A stretch of DNA of 57,553 nucleotides. It comes from Lachnospiraceae bacterium. GTDB lineage: Bacteria > Bacillota > Clostridia > Lachnospirales > Lachnospiraceae. How positions within the stretch are numbered: the first letter of the stretch is position 1; each line of letters opens with the position of its first letter. Positions 1-5,957 of the stretch are shown piece by piece. The translations under genes and the position numbers were made by a program. The stretch covers positions 1,059-58,611 of the forward strand of contig JAUNOI010000006.1 in assembly GCA_030531165.1 (NCBI GenBank), in the 5' to 3' direction. The notes beneath the pieces are model-generated. The model was not told the origin of the DNA. It was given only the letters and a program-made list of their open reading frames with translations, and ran no database searches.

Positions 1-1074
1 GTTAATATCTGATAGGATTTGATAGATTTGACTTGCTTCTTTACATGCATATTCAGGTATTCCAAACCAATCTCCTGTCTCTGCCAAACGATTTGCCGGA
101 CATGAATCACATATTTTGGCATATTTGCAAAATCTACATTCATCAACTATATGACTGTTTGGATATTTCTCTGGAAGTTTTGCCCATGCTTCCTTAAAAC
201 CATCTTTAAATGGCTCTGTGAATCCTTGATCTAACAATTCACAGGCATACATACGACCACTCCAACTAATTGCATATTCATTTATTCCAGCACCACAATT
301 CTCAAATAAATATTTTCCTTCGCAAAATACATTATGATTATGAAAATCAAGCTTTCGTATTTCATTTTGTGGTTTCTCTATTTCTCCATTCTTTATCTTT
401 TGTTGAAAATCAAGTAACCATGGATAAATCAATTTAATATTTTCATCTGGAGTTAATCTGACTTTTTGTGGACAAGAAATTCCATTGCGAATTTTATTTA
501 CAACCATCCGACTTACATGAAGTATTTCTTCCTGACCAAACTTCTGTTTTACAAAATCACGCATAGCGGACAAATCTTCTAAATTATCTTTCACAATTGT
601 TGTTCTTATTTCAAAAAGAGAATCTAATTCTGTTAACCTGCTTACACCATCTACAAATCGATCATATCCATCACAACAGCCACACAATCTTTGATACGTA
701 GCATTAGATGCTCCGTACATAGTTACACCTATTTTATGAGGTGGATATCTCCTTAATAATTCCATGATTTCATCTGTTACCATGGTTGCATTCGTATAAA
801 TAGTTAATAAAAATCCCATCTGGGCAATCGCTTCATATATTTTACAGAAATCTGTTCGAAGCATTATCTCGCCACCAGTTAATAATAATCCAAGAGTTCC
901 TGCATCCTTAGCCTGCTCTGCCATATGAATCCACTCACTGGCTGTACGCTCCCGAAGTTTTAATTCGTGCATCTTCTTTTGGTTTACTCGAATCAAGCAC
1001 ATCTTGCATCCCAAGTTACAACGACCGGTCAATTCAAATGTACCATTTAATGGAATACGCTGTTTTTTATTCAT
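1..1074 (-). CDS. Radical SAM/SPASM peptide maturase, 3' end cut by window edge
   Basis: I translated 358 codons from an ATG at 1074 down to base 1 with no stop, so the C-terminus lies outside the window. The radical SAM cluster motif CNLGCKMC (Cys19, 23, 26) binds the 4Fe-4S cluster that cleaves SAM, and TGGE at residues 66-69 is the usual SAM-binding strand. A SPASM domain follows: Cys260 and Cys278, then Cys313, 316, 322 and 325, then Cys344, which normally bind one or two auxiliary clusters. In SPASM enzymes this architecture typically modifies ribosomal peptides, although anaerobic sulfatase maturases share it. The start overlaps the 3' end of the PqqD-like gene by 8 bp, implying translational coupling. 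The PqqD partner makes peptide maturation the better guess. The substrate is not known. Confidence 0.85.
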   Translation of the reverse strand, partial: MNKKQRIPLNGTFELTGRCNLGCKMCLIRVNQKKMHELKLRERTASEWIHMAEQAKDAGTLGLLLTGGEIMLRTDFCKIYEAIAQMGFLLTIYTNATMVTDEIMELLRRYPPHKIGVTMYGASNATYQRLCGCCDGYDRFVDGVSRLTELDSLFEIRTTIVKDNLEDLSAMRDFVKQKFGQEEILHVSRMVVNKIRNGISCPQKVRLTPDENIKLIYPWLLDFQQKIKNGEIEKPQNEIRKLDFHNHNVFCEGKYLFENCGAGINEYAISWSGRMYACELLDQGFTEPFKDGFKEAWAKLPEKYPNSHIVDECRFCKYAKICDSCPANRLAETGDWFGIPEYACKEASQIYQILSDIN

Positions 1075-1348
1075 ATTCTTCTATCATCCTTCTCGCTGTA
1101 AGAAGTTTTAATGTATCCTCTACATCTTTTTCAGCCTGTTCTTTTGAAATATGAAATTTTTCTTGAAGTGCATCACATAGACTAGCAGCATCTGAACCTT
1201 CCTGTAAACAAACCCATAATGCCTTCGCAGAATCATTTAATATAATCACCCCACTAAAGTCTGCAACGCCGGCACCAACCGCAACTAATACAGACGTGTC
1301 TGCAATCTCCCGCAATACATATTCCTTTTTTGCTCTATATCTTTTCAT
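1067..1348 (-). CDS. PqqD-like RiPP recognition protein
   Basis: The 93-residue protein has the PqqD layout: a short beta region with a Val/Ala-rich strand, a central segment in which an I-I-L-N-D-S-A motif is followed by a W (residues ~35-46), and a C-terminal helical part with L...F...E...V...L...L spacing. PqqD-family proteins (RiPP recognition elements) bind the leader of a precursor peptide and deliver it to the cognate radical SAM enzyme; they have no catalytic activity. The start has a purine-rich ribosome site (AAGGAAGAAG) and the stop overlaps the radical SAM start, so the two genes form one translational unit. Family assignment is by pattern and context, not by alignment. Confidence 0.7.
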   Translation of the reverse strand: MKRYRAKKEYVLREIADTSVLVAVGAGVADFSGVIILNDSAKALWVCLQEGSDAASLCDALQEKFHISKEQAEKDVEDTLKLLTARRMIEEYE

Positions 1349-1418
1349 ATAATCTTCTTCCTTTTAAATCTATAAATAACCTCTACAAAACAGTGTATAA
1401 AACAAAATAAATATCAAA

Positions 1419-1478
1419 TCAAGAACAATTATATAATTCTTTCATTTCATTAAAATCATAAAAGGCTAACTCTATCAT
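1419..1478 (-). CDS. Candidate short precursor peptide (19 residues)
   Basis: A 20-codon frame lies 70 bp upstream of the PqqD-like gene on the same strand. It encodes MIELAFYDFNEMKELYNCS and is preceded by AGAGGG five bases before the ATG, a credible ribosome binding site. An in-frame ATG at 1511 would extend it to 30 residues, adding a Gly-Lys-Arg-Asp stretch, but has no ribosome site. Position and a C-terminal Asn-Cys-Ser tail fit a RiPP precursor; the aromatic/Asp/Asn-rich core could be a crosslinking substrate. This is inference: short frames occur by chance in AT-rich DNA and I know no family with this sequence. Confidence 0.3.
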   Translation of the reverse strand: MIELAFYDFNEMKELYNCS

Positions 1479-1678
1479 CAAGTCCCTCTTACCAATTGTA
1501 TAGTTCAACATAAAAATATCGAAATAATCATTCTGACAAAGTTATTTCTTGAAATTAGTACTATAAATTATCATTTTACAGATTTATTATATTATTAGAG
1601 AAAGATGTAGGAACAGCCAATGAAATCTTAAACTATATCTTGTTTCAATCCATGGTTATTATATAAACATTTTTCCTG

Positions 1679-1712
1679 CCTGCCGTATGGACACCTGTAT
1701 CCATACGACAGG
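1679..1712 (-). repeat. 13-bp inverted repeat after recombinase gene
   Basis: CCTGCCGTATGGA (1679-1691) and TCCATACGACAGG (1700-1712) form a stem with an 8-base loop. In the minus-strand transcript the single mismatch becomes a G-U pair, so the stem is complete only in that RNA. It lies 9 bp past the recombinase stop. No U-run follows, so it is a poor intrinsic terminator; it may stabilise the mRNA 3' end or be a recombination-related site. Confidence 0.5.
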
Positions 1713-1720
1713 ACATATCC

Positions 1721-2707
1721 TCAACCAATATATTTTCTATGAGAATTTTTTACATTATTCTGATTTACCATAGCATAATGCATTGTCGTGTCAATTCGGA
1801 CATGTCCAAGAAGCATCTGCACCTGTTCAATCGGCATCCCCTTGTCAATGGCCATAGTCGCCAGAGTTCTTCGAAACTTATGCGGATAGACATGATCAAC
1901 ATGAGTGAGTGATCCAAGTTTTTTCAGCCTTTTTTCTACGCCACTGATTGACAAACGTTCATACGGCGAACGAATCGAAACGAATAACGCTTCATTATTA
2001 TCCGTTCTAGAATCTAAATATTCTTGCAAATGTAATTTTGTTCTCGCATCAAAATATACTTCCCGTTCTTTACTTCCTTTACCAAAAACAATACAAGATC
2101 TCTCCTGAAAATTAATATTCTGCCGATTTAATTTTACCAGTTCCCCTACACGAACTCCAGTGGAAGAAAGAAACTCAATTAACACTAAGTCACGTAGAGC
2201 GGGACAGGCATTTCGTAATACTTCCAAATTTTCGTCTGAAAATGTATCTTTGATTATTTGTTCTGTTTTCACTTTATGAATTCGTCTTGCCGGACTTTTT
2301 ATAATATAATCCTCATCCTCTAGCCATGAAAAAAATCCTGATAAAATGCGGCGTATATTATCCATTGTCACTTTACTTGCATTGTGCTCTTTTTGATGCA
2401 TAGCTAAATATAAGCGCAAATCTTCTGTTGTAATTTTCTTTATATCTTTATCCATCGACACAAGTAATTTATGAATTGTCGAACGATAATAATGAATAGT
2501 TTTCTCCGAACAACCTTCAATTTCTTTTGCTGCAATATACATTCTCAAATAATCATTATTATTTTTCCGATATTGTTCCTCATCTGTTATTTCAATTATA
2601 ATATTTGAAAAACAATCTAATAGGACTTCATGTAATTTATCCATTTGAGTTTCCGAAAGAAATTGGCTCATCTGCGTTCTTATTTCTCTGATTAGTTGTT
2701 CTTTCAT
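1721..2707 (-). CDS. Tyrosine recombinase (XerC/D-like integrase)
   Basis: The 328-residue protein has an N-terminal helical extension, a SAM-like core-binding domain (about residues 50-135) and a C-terminal catalytic domain. The catalytic set is present: Arg186 in STGVRVGEL, Lys210 in the beta-hairpin, His276 and Arg279 in HKFRR, His302 in LLGH and the nucleophile Tyr311. It should therefore be active in site-specific strand exchange. It is longer than XerC/XerD (about 300 residues) because of the N-terminal extension and sits beside the RiPP-like genes, not in a xer context, so it more likely serves a mobile element or a DNA inversion than chromosome dimer resolution. The ATG is fixed by AGGAGG eight bases upstream. 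Confidence 0.85.
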   Translation of the reverse strand: MKEQLIREIRTQMSQFLSETQMDKLHEVLLDCFSNIIIEITDEEQYRKNNNDYLRMYIAAKEIEGCSEKTIHYYRSTIHKLLVSMDKDIKKITTEDLRLYLAMHQKEHNASKVTMDNIRRILSGFFSWLEDEDYIIKSPARRIHKVKTEQIIKDTFSDENLEVLRNACPALRDLVLIEFLSSTGVRVGELVKLNRQNINFQERSCIVFGKGSKEREVYFDARTKLHLQEYLDSRTDNNEALFVSIRSPYERLSISGVEKRLKKLGSLTHVDHVYPHKFRRTLATMAIDKGMPIEQVQMLLGHVRIDTTMHYAMVNQNNVKNSHRKYIG

Positions 2708-2727
2708 TTATTTTCCTCCTTGTTTAT

Positions 2728-2743
2728 GTACAAATTAATGTAC
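2728..2743. promoter_or_regulatory. GTACA-N6-TGTAC palindrome upstream of recombinase
   Basis: A perfect 5-bp inverted repeat (GTACA, six bases, TGTAC) lies about 20 bp upstream of the recombinase start, between an AT-rich TATTAT-like box near 2752 and the ribosome binding site. Its place just past a plausible transcription start would suit an operator, possibly for autoregulation; no regulator is identified. Confidence 0.25.
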
Positions 2744-2884
2744 TTTAACACTTATAATAATTATGGACACAACTATAGAAATTTTATTCAGTTAAATAAT
2801 GATTTATCAGAAATAGTCAGATTATGAAACAATCATAAAGCGTTGGATAATAAAATCGAAAAATAAATAAAACCAAACAAAGAA

Positions 2885-2913
2885 GCAGATAGCTAAATTT
2901 GTTAGCTATCTGC
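2885..2913 (-). terminator. Intrinsic terminator of aspS
   Basis: GCAGATAGCTAA and TTAGCTATCTGC form a perfect 12-bp stem with a 5-base loop, 25 bp past the aspS stop. On the minus strand a U-rich tail follows (TTCTTTGTTTGG, then TTTTATTT). Confidence 0.85.
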
Positions 2914-2937
2914 CCTTTATACGTTTCCGCAAACAAT

Positions 2938-4689
2938 TTATTTTCTCACCTTAATATGCGCTTCACGAAGCTGTAATTCGGAAACCTCGCCAGGAGCGCC
3001 GCACATCAGATCCTGCGCATTACCATTCATTGGGAATGGAATGACTTCACGGATATTTTCTTCATCGCGTAAAAGCATGATCATACGGTCAACACCAGGT
3101 GCCATACCTGCGTGTGGTGGAGCACCGTACTGGAATGCATTGTATAATGCACCGAATTTTTCTTTTAAGTCATCTTCTGTATATCCGGCAATTTCAAATG
3201 CTTTTACCATAATGTCTAAGTTATGGTTACGAACCGCTCCTGAAGATAATTCAACACCGTTACATACGATATCGTACTGGTAAGCCAGAATCTCTTCTGG
3301 ATCTTTCGTATTCAATGCTTCTAAACCGCCTTGTGGCATAGAGAATGGGTTGTGTGTGAAGATGATCTTCTTTTCTTTCTCATCGTATTCATACATTGGA
3401 AAATCATTGATAAAGCAGAAACGGAATGCGTTCTTCTCTAATAAATCCAAACGATTTGCCAGTTCTGTACGAATCTGACCGGCAAATAAGTTTGCCTGTT
3501 TTTCTTTGTCAGAGATGAAGAAGATCGTATCTCCTGCCTGTAAACCAGCGATATCCGCAATTTCCTGCTTCATATCATCCGGAATAAATTTGTCAATCGG
3601 TCCTTTGTAAGTCATATCATCCTGAACCTGAAGATAACCAAGTCCACCCATGCCGATATGTCTTGCGAATGATTCAAATTTTTTATGGAATTTCTTTGAC
3701 ATCTGCTGATGAACATTGATCGCACGAACCGTTGTGCCGTGGAATGGTTCAAATGTACATCTCTGGAAGAAATCCGTCACATCGACAATTTCAAGAGGAT
3801 TGCGCAAATCCGGTTTATCGGTTCCATATTTTAACATTGCATCTGCATAGCTGATGACTGGATATGGAGCAGGTGTCACTGCTGCACCTTCCGGTGCAAA
3901 TTTTTCAAATGTCGCTGTTAACACTTCTTCTCCGGCACGGAATACATCTTCCTGCGTTGCAAAACTCATCTCAAAGTCTAACTGATAAAATTCTCCCGGT
4001 GAACGATCCGCACGTGCATCCTCATCACGGAAACAAGGTGCGATCTGGAAATATTTATCAATTCCAGACACCATCAAAAGCTGTTTGTACTGCTGCGGTG
4101 CCTGTGGCAACGCGTAAAACTTGCCTTTAAACTTACGGGAAGGCACGATATAATCTCTGGCACCTTCCGGTGAAGAGGCACAGAGGATCGGAGTCTGAAT
4201 TTCTAAAAATCCCATCTCTGTCATCTTCTGTCTTAAAAAACTGATAACCTGAGAACGGAATAAAATGTTGTCTTTTACTTTTGTATTACGGAGATCTAAA
4301 TAGCGATATTTTAAACGCACATCTTCACGGACTTCTTTCGAAGTTACGATCTCAAATGGAAGCTGTTTATACACTTTACCGAGCACTTCGATGGATGCTG
4401 CTTCCAGTTCGATTGTTCCGGTCGGAATCTTCGGATTATAGGTTTCCTCGTCGCGCTTTTCTACGATACCTTCAATCGATACACAGTCTTCTCTTGTGAT
4501 CCCCTTTAATAAATCCGTGTTACGCATAACGATCTGCAATACGCCATACATATCTCTCAAATCGATAAAGGAAACGCCGCCGTGGTCGCGGATATTCTCT
4601 ACCCATCCTGCGACTTTGCAAGTTGTTCCGATATCGCTTTCACTGATTTCGTTTAATAATCTGTTACGATAAATATTTGGTGTGTTCAT
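2938..4689 (-). CDS. aspS: Aspartyl-tRNA synthetase
   Basis: At 583 residues this is a full-length bacterial class IIb aspartyl-tRNA synthetase. It opens with the OB-fold anticodon-binding domain (VAGWVENIRDHGGVSFIDLRD), followed by class II motif 2 (FRDEDARADR) and the LDFEMSF segment, a bacterial GAD insertion in the middle, and motif 3 near the C-terminus (GMAPGVDRMIMLL). It charges tRNA-Asp with aspartate in the cytoplasm. The ATG is preceded by AAAGGAG. The gene is monocistronic, with a T-box leader and its own terminator, so its expression should follow tRNA-Asp charging. Confidence 0.97.
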   Translation of the reverse strand: MNTPNIYRNRLLNEISESDIGTTCKVAGWVENIRDHGGVSFIDLRDMYGVLQIVMRNTDLLKGITREDCVSIEGIVEKRDEETYNPKIPTGTIELEAASIEVLGKVYKQLPFEIVTSKEVREDVRLKYRYLDLRNTKVKDNILFRSQVISFLRQKMTEMGFLEIQTPILCASSPEGARDYIVPSRKFKGKFYALPQAPQQYKQLLMVSGIDKYFQIAPCFRDEDARADRSPGEFYQLDFEMSFATQEDVFRAGEEVLTATFEKFAPEGAAVTPAPYPVISYADAMLKYGTDKPDLRNPLEIVDVTDFFQRCTFEPFHGTTVRAINVHQQMSKKFHKKFESFARHIGMGGLGYLQVQDDMTYKGPIDKFIPDDMKQEIADIAGLQAGDTIFFISDKEKQANLFAGQIRTELANRLDLLEKNAFRFCFINDFPMYEYDEKEKKIIFTHNPFSMPQGGLEALNTKDPEEILAYQYDIVCNGVELSSGAVRNHNLDIMVKAFEIAGYTEDDLKEKFGALYNAFQYGAPPHAGMAPGVDRMIMLLRDEENIREVIPFPMNGNAQDLMCGAPGEVSELQLREAHIKVRK

Positions 4690-5049
4690 GAAGTTTCTCC
4701 TTTTACTGCTGATTTGTATTTTGATGGAATGGCTTTCTTCTTATAATATTCTGTAAGCAAAAGAAAGACCATCCATCCATAACGTTTCACTTCGTCAGGA
4801 CGAACAGCCATGTCCGCGGTACCACCTGATTTACTGCCTAGCAGTCTCTTATCGGCTATAAAACCCTGCCTGCTCACGTGAGGCTTCCGGCGCACCTACT
4901 AAAAGTCTTCTATATAATTATAGGAAAATCTCCGTTCAGATTGCAGCTAGGAAGTGTTATTCACATAGTCTCATTCTTACGGGGTTTCCACTGTCTCCCG
5001 CTCACTGGAAGCGAGCTTCTATGCTACTTCTCTTCGTCATCGCCGTTAG
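4690..5049 (-). promoter_or_regulatory. T-box riboswitch leader of aspS
   Basis: The roughly 350-nt leader contains the T-box signature AGGTGGTACCGCGG (4827 down to 4814), which pairs with the NCCA end of uncharged tRNA. Upstream lies a Stem I-like region with AGAGAAGTAGC near its base. A GAC triplet at 4970-4968 lies in the expected zone and would read tRNA-Asp, but I assign it only tentatively. Between the T-box and aspS there is a small TTCGTC/GACGAA hairpin and a later U-rich run near 4757; I could not resolve one clear terminator stem, so the control could be transcriptional or could hide the ribosome site. Confidence 0.88.
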
Positions 5050-5054
5050 AAATA

Positions 5055-5084
5055 ACTATACCTTATTTCGGGAATACTTGTCAA
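5055..5084 (-). promoter_or_regulatory. Sigma-A promoter of aspS leader
   Basis: TTGACA (5084-5079), an 18-bp spacer and TATAGT (5060-5055) sit directly upstream of the T-box leader, giving a start near 5048. Confidence 0.8.
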
Positions 5085-5153
5085 TTATTTATAGAAGAAA
5101 AATTGCAGTTTTACCGAGCAGAAATCAATCATCGATGATAGAAAATGAATCTT

Positions 5154-5957
5154 CTATGATATAATTCCCCAATGCTTCAATGCATATGCAATTCCTTCTT
5201 CTTCCACATTCTTTGTCACAAAATCCGCCACTTCTTCTACGATCTCGCTGTGCTTTCCCATGATCGTCGCATGCCCTGCTGCTTTTAGCATCGTATAGTC
5301 ATTCTCGCTGTCACCAAATGCGTATACATTCTCTCTCGGATAGCCGGACTTCTGCAGGATTGCCTCCAATGCCGATCCCTTCGTACATCCCTTTGGCATA
5401 ATCTCTGCATAATCTTCGGTCGGATGATGGATCATCTCCAGTTCCTCACAAAACAGGGCTTCTAATTCCGCATAGACTTCCGGATCCTCATACATCACCG
5501 TCATTTTATTAAAACCGATATCGTACTGGTCCTCCCACTGTCCAAACTTCGAACGATCCAGCCCAAAATACTCCATAATCCTCTCATAGATCGCTGAACC
5601 GACTTTGGAACAATAAGAAAAATCCTGTGTCTCATAATCTGCATAGATCAGATCATCTTTTCCTTCGAGAAAGGAATTGAATCGGCGCAATACATCCGTA
5701 TCAACGGTCCGGTTCTCATATTCTGTCCCTTTGATCCGTGCATATGCTCCGTTCGTCGTAATAAATCCATCAAATAAATACTTGACCGGCTCTACCATCG
5801 AAATACTTCTTCCAGATGCCAAAATGGTAAGATACCCTCTCTTACGAGCAGTCTGAAGTGCTTCGATCGTCGTTTCACTGATCTCGTGGATACCGATGCT
5901 TCCATCTACTAATGTGCCATCATAATCAAACAAAAGTAATCCCTTGCTGTCTAACAT
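5154..5957 (-). CDS. Cof-type HAD-IIB phosphatase
   Basis: The protein has HAD motif I (LLLFDYDGTLVDG, nucleophile and acid Asp), motif II in ILASGRS, and motif III/IV in AFGDSENDYTMLKAAG, which together with a roughly 85-residue C2B cap place it in the Cof/YidA branch. These enzymes dephosphorylate sugar phosphates and other small phosphometabolites; the substrate cannot be told from sequence. I place the start at the ATG at 5957 because AAAGGAG lies eight bases upstream, giving 267 residues; an upstream in-frame ATG at 5993 would add 12 residues without a ribosome site. The stop is 70 bp upstream of the aspS promoter. Confidence 0.9.
   Translation of the reverse strand: MLDSKGLLLFDYDGTLVDGSIGIHEISETTIEALQTARKRGYLTILASGRSISMVEPVKYLFDGFITTNGAYARIKGTEYENRTVDTDVLRRFNSFLEGKDDLIYADYETQDFSYCSKVGSAIYERIMEYFGLDRSKFGQWEDQYDIGFNKMTVMYEDPEVYAELEALFCEELEMIHHPTEDYAEIMPKGCTKGSALEAILQKSGYPRENVYAFGDSENDYTMLKAAGHATIMGKHSEIVEEVADFVTKNVEEEGIAYALKHWGIIS

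Follow-up and report, generated by a model that had tools for sequence, protein, structure and literature searches.

At its left edge, the window (the whole stretch of Lachnospiraceae DNA analyzed here, 57,553 nucleotides long and corresponding to G000:C34:1059-58611) appears to hold the first two genes of a five-gene cassette, whose predicted members are a RiPP recognition element (RRE), a radical SAM/SPASM maturase, a precursor peptide, a kinase, and a SipW-like peptidase. Judging by gene content and by analogy with characterized pathways, we interpret this cassette as a radical SAM variant of the phosphorylated RiPPs, in which one small peptide would be modified twice, by the radical SAM enzyme and by a kinase acting on its last residue, a serine, and we assign this reading a probability of about 0.65. 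The features on which the argument depends are as follows.

Window 1..1074, minus strand: radical SAM/SPASM peptide maturase, 358 aa, open at the left edge.
Window 1067..1348, minus strand: discrete PqqD-type RRE, 93 aa, overlapping the maturase gene by 8 bp.
Window 1419..1511, minus strand: short frame of 30 codons, or 19 codons from an inner ATG at 1478, judged not to be the precursor and probably not a gene.
Window 1..1, minus strand: left edge of the window, beyond which the cassette runs on, on the same contig.
G000:C34:1049-1058: run of 10 N directly at the window edge, most likely an assembly join.
L004:715-999, minus strand: precursor candidate, 94 aa, with a YxxP leader and AAGGAGG in front.
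L004:1-711, minus strand: HprK-like kinase, 237 aa, cut by the contig end and lying 3 bp past the precursor.

Both cassette genes inside the window match known families far beyond chance, unlike the short frame upstream of them, and the original prediction of a RiPP locus built on a SPASM maturase and an overlapping PqqD-type recognition element is borne out. The maturase frame matches the Pfam family Radical_SAM (PF04055) at an E value of 3e-17, and its CX3CX2C motif lies at C19-C23-C26. When the window protein is aligned with three relatives of 51 to 62% identity, this motif and the auxiliary cysteines 260, 278, 313, 316, 322, 325, and 344 are invariant (4/4), in agreement with the full SPASM cysteine set that had been read from the sequence; the last codons and the stop of the maturase are lost in the run of N to the left of the window. 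The PqqD-type protein scores 50.7 bits against PF05402 (cut-off, 23.4). Among nine RRE sequences, D75 is kept in all and N38 in eight, and the spacing of 37 residues between them would, in a register that is our own reading, equal that of N33 and D70 in LppB, the residues that hold the tyrosine and the kink at the proline of YxxP leaders (PMC13381572, available text).

The contig extends 1,058 bp further to the left of the window, and the additional genes that had been suspected behind the truncated edge are indeed found by leftward extension, in the form of the precursor candidate and the kinase. The precursor was originally sought on the other side of the maturase; in the candidate past the window edge, the position, the leader, and the final residue are all conserved. 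The join across the 10 N is believable because L037, L038, L039, and L042 show the identical gene order, PqqD-radical SAM-precursor-HprK, with the maturase and precursor separated by 58, 57, 91, and 12 bp, respectively. No known precursor family was recognized: NCBIfam models gave no match for the precursor of the window's own locus, L004 (E values up to 1), or for those of L037, L039, and L042 (up to 0.1), and no Pfam model exceeded its cut-off for any of these four. Within the core of the L004 precursor, residues 35 to 46 read DVDGDGQVDSGE, a loop of the EF-hand type (E = 0.015 for Pfam EF-hand_1, under its cut-off); looser loops of this type occur in L037, L038, L042, and L039, and the same pattern finds none in L121, L226, and L228.

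The frame first proposed as the precursor, between pqqD and the gene upstream, is present as described, with AGAGGG ahead of its inner ATG, an Asn-Cys-Ser C terminus, and a stop 70 bp before pqqD, features that would suit a precursor or a second precursor. Its conservation across relatives, the test set for it at the outset, went against it: 500 bp upstream of pqqD (249 bp in L042) contained no counterpart in 6/6 relatives, where the best tblastn match had an E value of 3.8. Nor is the frame far beyond chance, in that 141 of 2,000 dinucleotide shuffles of the 372-bp gap contained an ATG frame of at least 19 codons preceded by an SD sequence on that strand. It lacks YxxP, even though the Asn and Asp used to bind this motif are retained in the RRE, and, unlike this frame, the precursor at the other cassette position is conserved. 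We have therefore dropped the short frame as a candidate and hold it to be extremely improbable that it encodes a precursor of any kind. Promoter-like sites show no excess (13, against a shuffle mean of 14.6), and Rfam gave 0 matches at gathering score on window positions 1 to 5200.

A XerA-like tyrosine recombinase (window 1721-2707, minus strand) ends 372 bp upstream of pqqD. Its homologues (59% and 51%) lie at L080:2070-3065 (plus strand) and L186:12836-13501 (plus strand), on the contigs of two other radical SAM-HprK clusters. Inversion of the promoter by this neighboring recombinase was considered and rejected, as the surroundings of the pqqD promoter showed no inverted arms that were convincing.

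The cassette recurs in relatives. A scan of GTDB species genomes with the maturase gave three loci, L037 (62%), L038 (60%), and L039 (51%). Among 397 genomes searched in the window's family, 35 match at an E value of 1e-50 or better; this search added L042 and, following it in closeness, L121, L073, and L074, each with a peptidase (the L121 contig starts inside the maturase). Of 391 genomes of the class, 9, the window's own among them, match at 1e-70 or better, and three of the other eight loci (L226, L227, and L228, from two other families) have the full order and a precursor of the window type. A peptidase follows the kinase in L037 (163 aa) and L039 (152 aa), and the contigs of L038 and L042 end inside and after the kinase, respectively. 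Ten neighbor frames of L037, L038, and L039 scanned with Pfam belong to unrelated families, e.g., nitrogenase-like and galactose-phosphate genes, and therefore support the borders of the cassette. Directly upstream of the cassette in L037 (1901-5396, plus strand) are NifH-like and nitrogenase-component-like genes; L038 and L039 have other surroundings.

A PqqD protein beside a SPASM enzyme is also the layout of PQQ loci, and models for PqqE and the mycofactocin maturase appear among the NCBIfam matches of the window maturase, although among the matches listed (25 of 53) all equivalogs, these two included, fall far below their cut-offs. The maturase could accordingly make a redox cofactor of the PQQ or mycofactocin kind, or modify a protein, with the 94-aa frame as a substrate protein rather than a natural-product precursor; another point in favor is the roughly 66 residues, among them the EF-hand-like loop, that follow the CWG motif in the L004 precursor. 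This reading seems to us very unlikely. Against it speak the unrelated families of the 10 scanned neighbor frames and the combination of a conserved leader with strongly differing cores, which is a mark of RiPPs. A sulfatase beside the maturase had been named in advance as evidence against a RiPP locus; none was found among the cassette genes or the same 10 frames, and no anSME model is among the 25 of 53 NCBIfam matches listed. Returning to a peptide maturase, the nearest solved structures are SkfB, a chain named only "Radical SAM" that we take to be SuiB, and PqqE. SkfB, SuiB, and PqqE form differing bonds. The window maturase has the radical SAM core and auxiliary cysteines of SPASM peptide maturases in common with them and differs in its partner genes.

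Ten aligned precursors have in common Met1, a Tyr, a Pro, a Phe, an Ala, a Cys, and a second Cys. Nine are of the window type (L004, L037, L038, L039, L042, L121, L226, L227, and L228, with the nearly identical L226 and L227 both counted), and all nine carry YxxP, the motif [IV]A[DA].C[WF][GA], and Ser as the C-terminal residue, while six have NT[KN] close to the C terminus. The leader consensus is YEKPxFxFQExxLxExVADxCWG.

To follow the terminal Ser beyond this type, we picked candidate precursors by a rule that took no account of how they end: an ATG with a ribosome site, 35 to 200 aa, [YW]xxP within 22 residues, on the kinase's strand, no more than 2.5 kb from the kinase, and with little overlap with other genes. 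The kinase matches in 89 of the 397 family genomes; the loci examined comprise most kinase matches and part of the maturase matches, and 29 kinase places (hand count, E values of 3e-25 to 8e-9) stand outside all counts made with the rule. Of 106 kinase genes, 58 are accompanied within 4 kb by a radical SAM gene on the same strand; 56 of these kinases come from family genomes, and the others are L038 and L039. A hand tally finds radical SAM-linked kinases in at least 40 of the 397 family genomes. The rule yielded candidates near 35 of the 58 linked kinases, 34 of them distinct, and 30 of the 34 end in Ser, the exceptions being L073 (with an N run inside the gene), L075, L128, and L148. Among the 48 kinases without radical SAM, seven gave candidates, of which 1 of 10 distinct ones ends in Ser; this sole case, L124, is on a 6.4-kb contig, and its kinase is the tree neighbor of the radical SAM-linked L086. 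For background, a terminal Ser occurs in 15 of 391 labeled genes of the loci and in 13 of 119 other small frames (taken with a stricter ribosome-site pattern from a slightly larger locus set).

Sequence similarity ties together 25 of the 34 candidates, which therefore do not count as independent. TCN and AGY codons are not exchangeable by one silent step. As the terminal Ser is encoded by both (TCA, 12; TCC, 7; TCT, 5; AGC, 6; AGT, 1; n = 31, with one candidate counted from two kinases) and is preceded by 13 different kinds of residues, the Ser itself seems to be kept. No rule candidate was found at 23 of the 58 linked kinases. Eight of these loci were inspected for the reason. In three from one kinase group, the maturase and the kinase flank a small protein rich in Gly and Ser that lacks YxxP and whose last residue is Ala (L135:7131-7526, minus strand), Leu (L146:5530-5934, plus strand), or Gly (L122:5612-5977, plus strand); we take these proteins to be a different precursor type. 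In L088, a YxxP frame ends in Ser-Ser-Thr. At the eight loci from other families, the candidates of L226, L227, and L228 end in Ser, unlike those of L229, L231 (two), and L233, and no YxxP candidate was seen in L230 or L232. Loci without a kinase gave only three candidates (L083, L164, and L205), two of them ending in Ser, both at contig ends, such that the kinase may be off the contig. The terminal-Ser rule is thus firm for the window type and extends to a large share of radical SAM-kinase loci, not to all. Three short precursors (YxxP, then TSG) that resemble those of the linear polyphosphorylated peptides (LPP) are encoded in L187 (5614-5748, 6785-6931, and 7116-7247, plus strand); since the trio surrounds one kinase without radical SAM, LPP-type loci may occur in the window's family too.

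The similarity of the kinases to HPr kinases is weak. That of L004 matches HprK_rel_A (E = 1.3e-4) and Pfam Hpr_kinase_C (E = 0.027), and that of L037 matches Hpr_kinase_C (E = 0.0014), all under cut-off, and in a comparison with solved structures HPr kinases take the four top places (E values of 0.016 to 0.069). Kinases of the window type keep a His, the P-loop with its Lys, and NGD, L038 being cut before the P-loop. In place of this NGD, which most other kinases share, NDD is found in 14 of the 48 kinases without radical SAM, as read from the alignment rows. The motif of the paeninodin kinases is His-Lys-Asp-Asp; the His, the P-loop Lys, and one Asp are kept here, and, with NGD instead of NDD, one Asp of the reported set may be missing.

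These details bear on the possibility that the terminal Ser is not what the kinase homologue phosphorylates and is conserved for another reason: phosphorylation could be internal, as in LPP, while the maturase or the peptidase requires the terminal Ser, or a nucleotide or sugar could be transferred to the C terminus. The phosphosite of LPP is Ser3 of the core and not the terminal residue (PMC13381572, available text), the kinase carries NGD, some radical SAM-kinase loci have candidates without a terminal Ser, and genes matching the nucleotidyltransferase profile, one of whose seeds is PF14907, lie within 6 kb of 19 of the 58 linked kinases. We nevertheless judge this rather unlikely, since the C-terminal Ser is the target of PadeK, ThcoK, SyanK, and PsmK (as summarized in the available text of a review, PMC9266682) and the terminal Ser tracks radical SAM-linked kinases (30/34 versus 1/10).

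A quick tree of 104 of the 106 kinases (L038 and L136, under 180 aa, were left out) places those of the window type together with L121, L073, and L074 in a group of 7 (SH-aLRT, 99). It collects 56 of 57 radical SAM-linked kinases, along with 7 others, in one part of 63 rows with moderate support (85), and it contains a separate part of 22 rows without radical SAM (96). Long kinases of more than 360 aa with no radical SAM gene nearby form a group of 16 (98), represented by L126, L142-L144, L151, L153, L158, L160, L162, L171, L183, L185, L191, L196, and L197; several of these frames also match PqqD and thus look like PqqD-HprK fusions. Such fusions contaminated the iterated PqqD profile, so only frames under 230 aa were labeled PqqD. 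With that definition, and with contig ends lowering all counts, the genes within 6 kb of the 58 linked kinases are PqqD (42), ABC transporter (27), signal peptidase (23), and nucleotidyltransferase (19), and those within 6 kb of the 48 other kinases are PqqD (23), ABC transporter (35), signal peptidase (30), and nucleotidyltransferase (23).

The peptidase scores as a signal peptidase of the archaeal type (TIGR02228; E = 3.5e-12 in L037 and 1.1e-11 in L039, under the curated cut-off) and keeps Ser, His, and Asp, the residue kinds that LppS needs. This SipW-like enzyme is present in L037, L039, L226, L227, and L228. No cassette peptidase was found in the window's genome, where the contig ends in the kinase; the sole match there is a homologue at 31% identity on another contig. 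A second signal-peptidase copy, adjacent to the first, is without the catalytic Ser in L226 (3250-3660, minus strand; Asp instead) and L227 (4041-4451, plus strand; Gly, by eye), and is perhaps a noncatalytic partner.

The window's genome contains a second radical SAM-HprK cluster (G000:C136, L079), whose precursor ends in FSS and adjoins a secreted-looking protein of 1,003 aa. Another contig, G000:C27 (L216), carries an ABC transporter and a signal peptidase that may be the missing half of this cluster.

Two known systems approach the cassette most closely. In LPP (Popov et al. 2026, Nat Commun, PMC13381572), the RRE binds YxxP, (poly)phosphorylation depends on the kinase, and cleavage by the SipW-like peptidase depends on the RRE, the unphosphorylated precursor being poorly cleaved; the available text describes RRE, YxxP, HprK, and SipW-like peptidase as proven to cooperate. 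The cassette resembles LPP in its discrete RRE, YxxP leader, HprK-like kinase (with the low scores given above), and archaeal-type, SipW-like peptidase and, in part of the wider loci, in the nucleotidyltransferase and ABC transporter. It departs from the LPP consensus YxxPxVLxHQxIxFETxxS, with a phospho-Ser at the start of the core, in that its conserved Ser is the last residue, and whereas LPP is, according to the same text, linear, with phosphorylation as the primary modification and no other core maturase, here a radical SAM/SPASM gene lies inside the cassette.

In lasso peptides of the paeninodin type, PadeK, ThcoK, SyanK, and PsmK phosphorylate the C-terminal Ser (PMC9266682, available text), and the available text of PMC7533575 reports HPr kinases in lasso clusters of rumen Lachnospiraceae. 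An HprK-like kinase, an RRE (B1), and a conserved C-terminal Ser (9/9 for the window type) are points of likeness to that system, as its available description gives it. The difference is that neither a macrolactam synthetase (C) nor a B2 peptidase was recognized in L037 and L039, by inspection of the frames and by Pfam on nine larger neighbor frames, and that radical SAM stands in their place. Defining features of both systems were thus tested and are absent, which is why we file the cassette under neither LPP nor lasso peptides. The kinase also weakly matches ScmC of SynChlorMet (E values of 0.0006 to 0.0011), though at 18 to 19 bits against a cut-off of 125 it is no member of that family.

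The sequences show the cassette with its gene order and conservation, the active-site residues, and the C-terminal Ser. Extrapolating from the work on LPP and paeninodin, we propose the following roles for the enzymes of a radical SAM phospho-RiPP. The RRE would grip the YxxP of the precursor leader and pass the peptide to the enzymes; the maturase would modify the core beside [IV]A[DA].C[WF][GA], probably forming a thioether or C-C crosslink that involves Cys or aromatic residues. Our guess is that the maturase targets the conserved Cys and nearby aromatic residues. The kinase would add one or more phosphates to the C-terminal Ser, and the signal-peptidase homologue, helped by the RRE, would cut off the leader. 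Any statement on the precise radical chemistry or on the role in the organism is a guess.

In the literature searched, we found no report in which an HprK-like kinase and a radical SAM maturase occur together. In the sole paper there that has both an HPr kinase and radical SAM, the kinase belongs, in the available text, to lasso clusters, and the combination is likewise absent from the available text of PMC13289728 and PMC10352776. The main text of the LPP paper (PMC13381572) contains none of the terms radical SAM, rSAM, SPASM, Lachnospir, and Clostridi, with S-adenosyl only in the title of a reference. That the loci collected here represent a widespread, undescribed class of doubly modified Clostridia RiPPs, in which a radical SAM/SPASM enzyme crosslinks the core and an HprK-like kinase (poly)phosphorylates the C-terminal Ser, is a generalization to which we give even odds.

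Phospho-RiPPs have so far comprised lasso peptides and, since 2026, the linear LPPs; here, the phosphorylation module meets a radical SAM maturase. If this reading is right, it would predict the phosphorylated residue for dozens of uncharacterized clusters, give a simple rule for many precursors (YxxP at the start and Ser at the end), and make the order of the radical, kinase, and peptidase steps testable in a single host. Under the generalization to a widespread class, the phosphate tail would be a handle for a nucleotidyltransferase or for attachment to the cell surface, and a single RRE-guided system would use radical SAM chemistry and the phosphorylation module of lasso peptides and LPP as parts that can be exchanged for each other.
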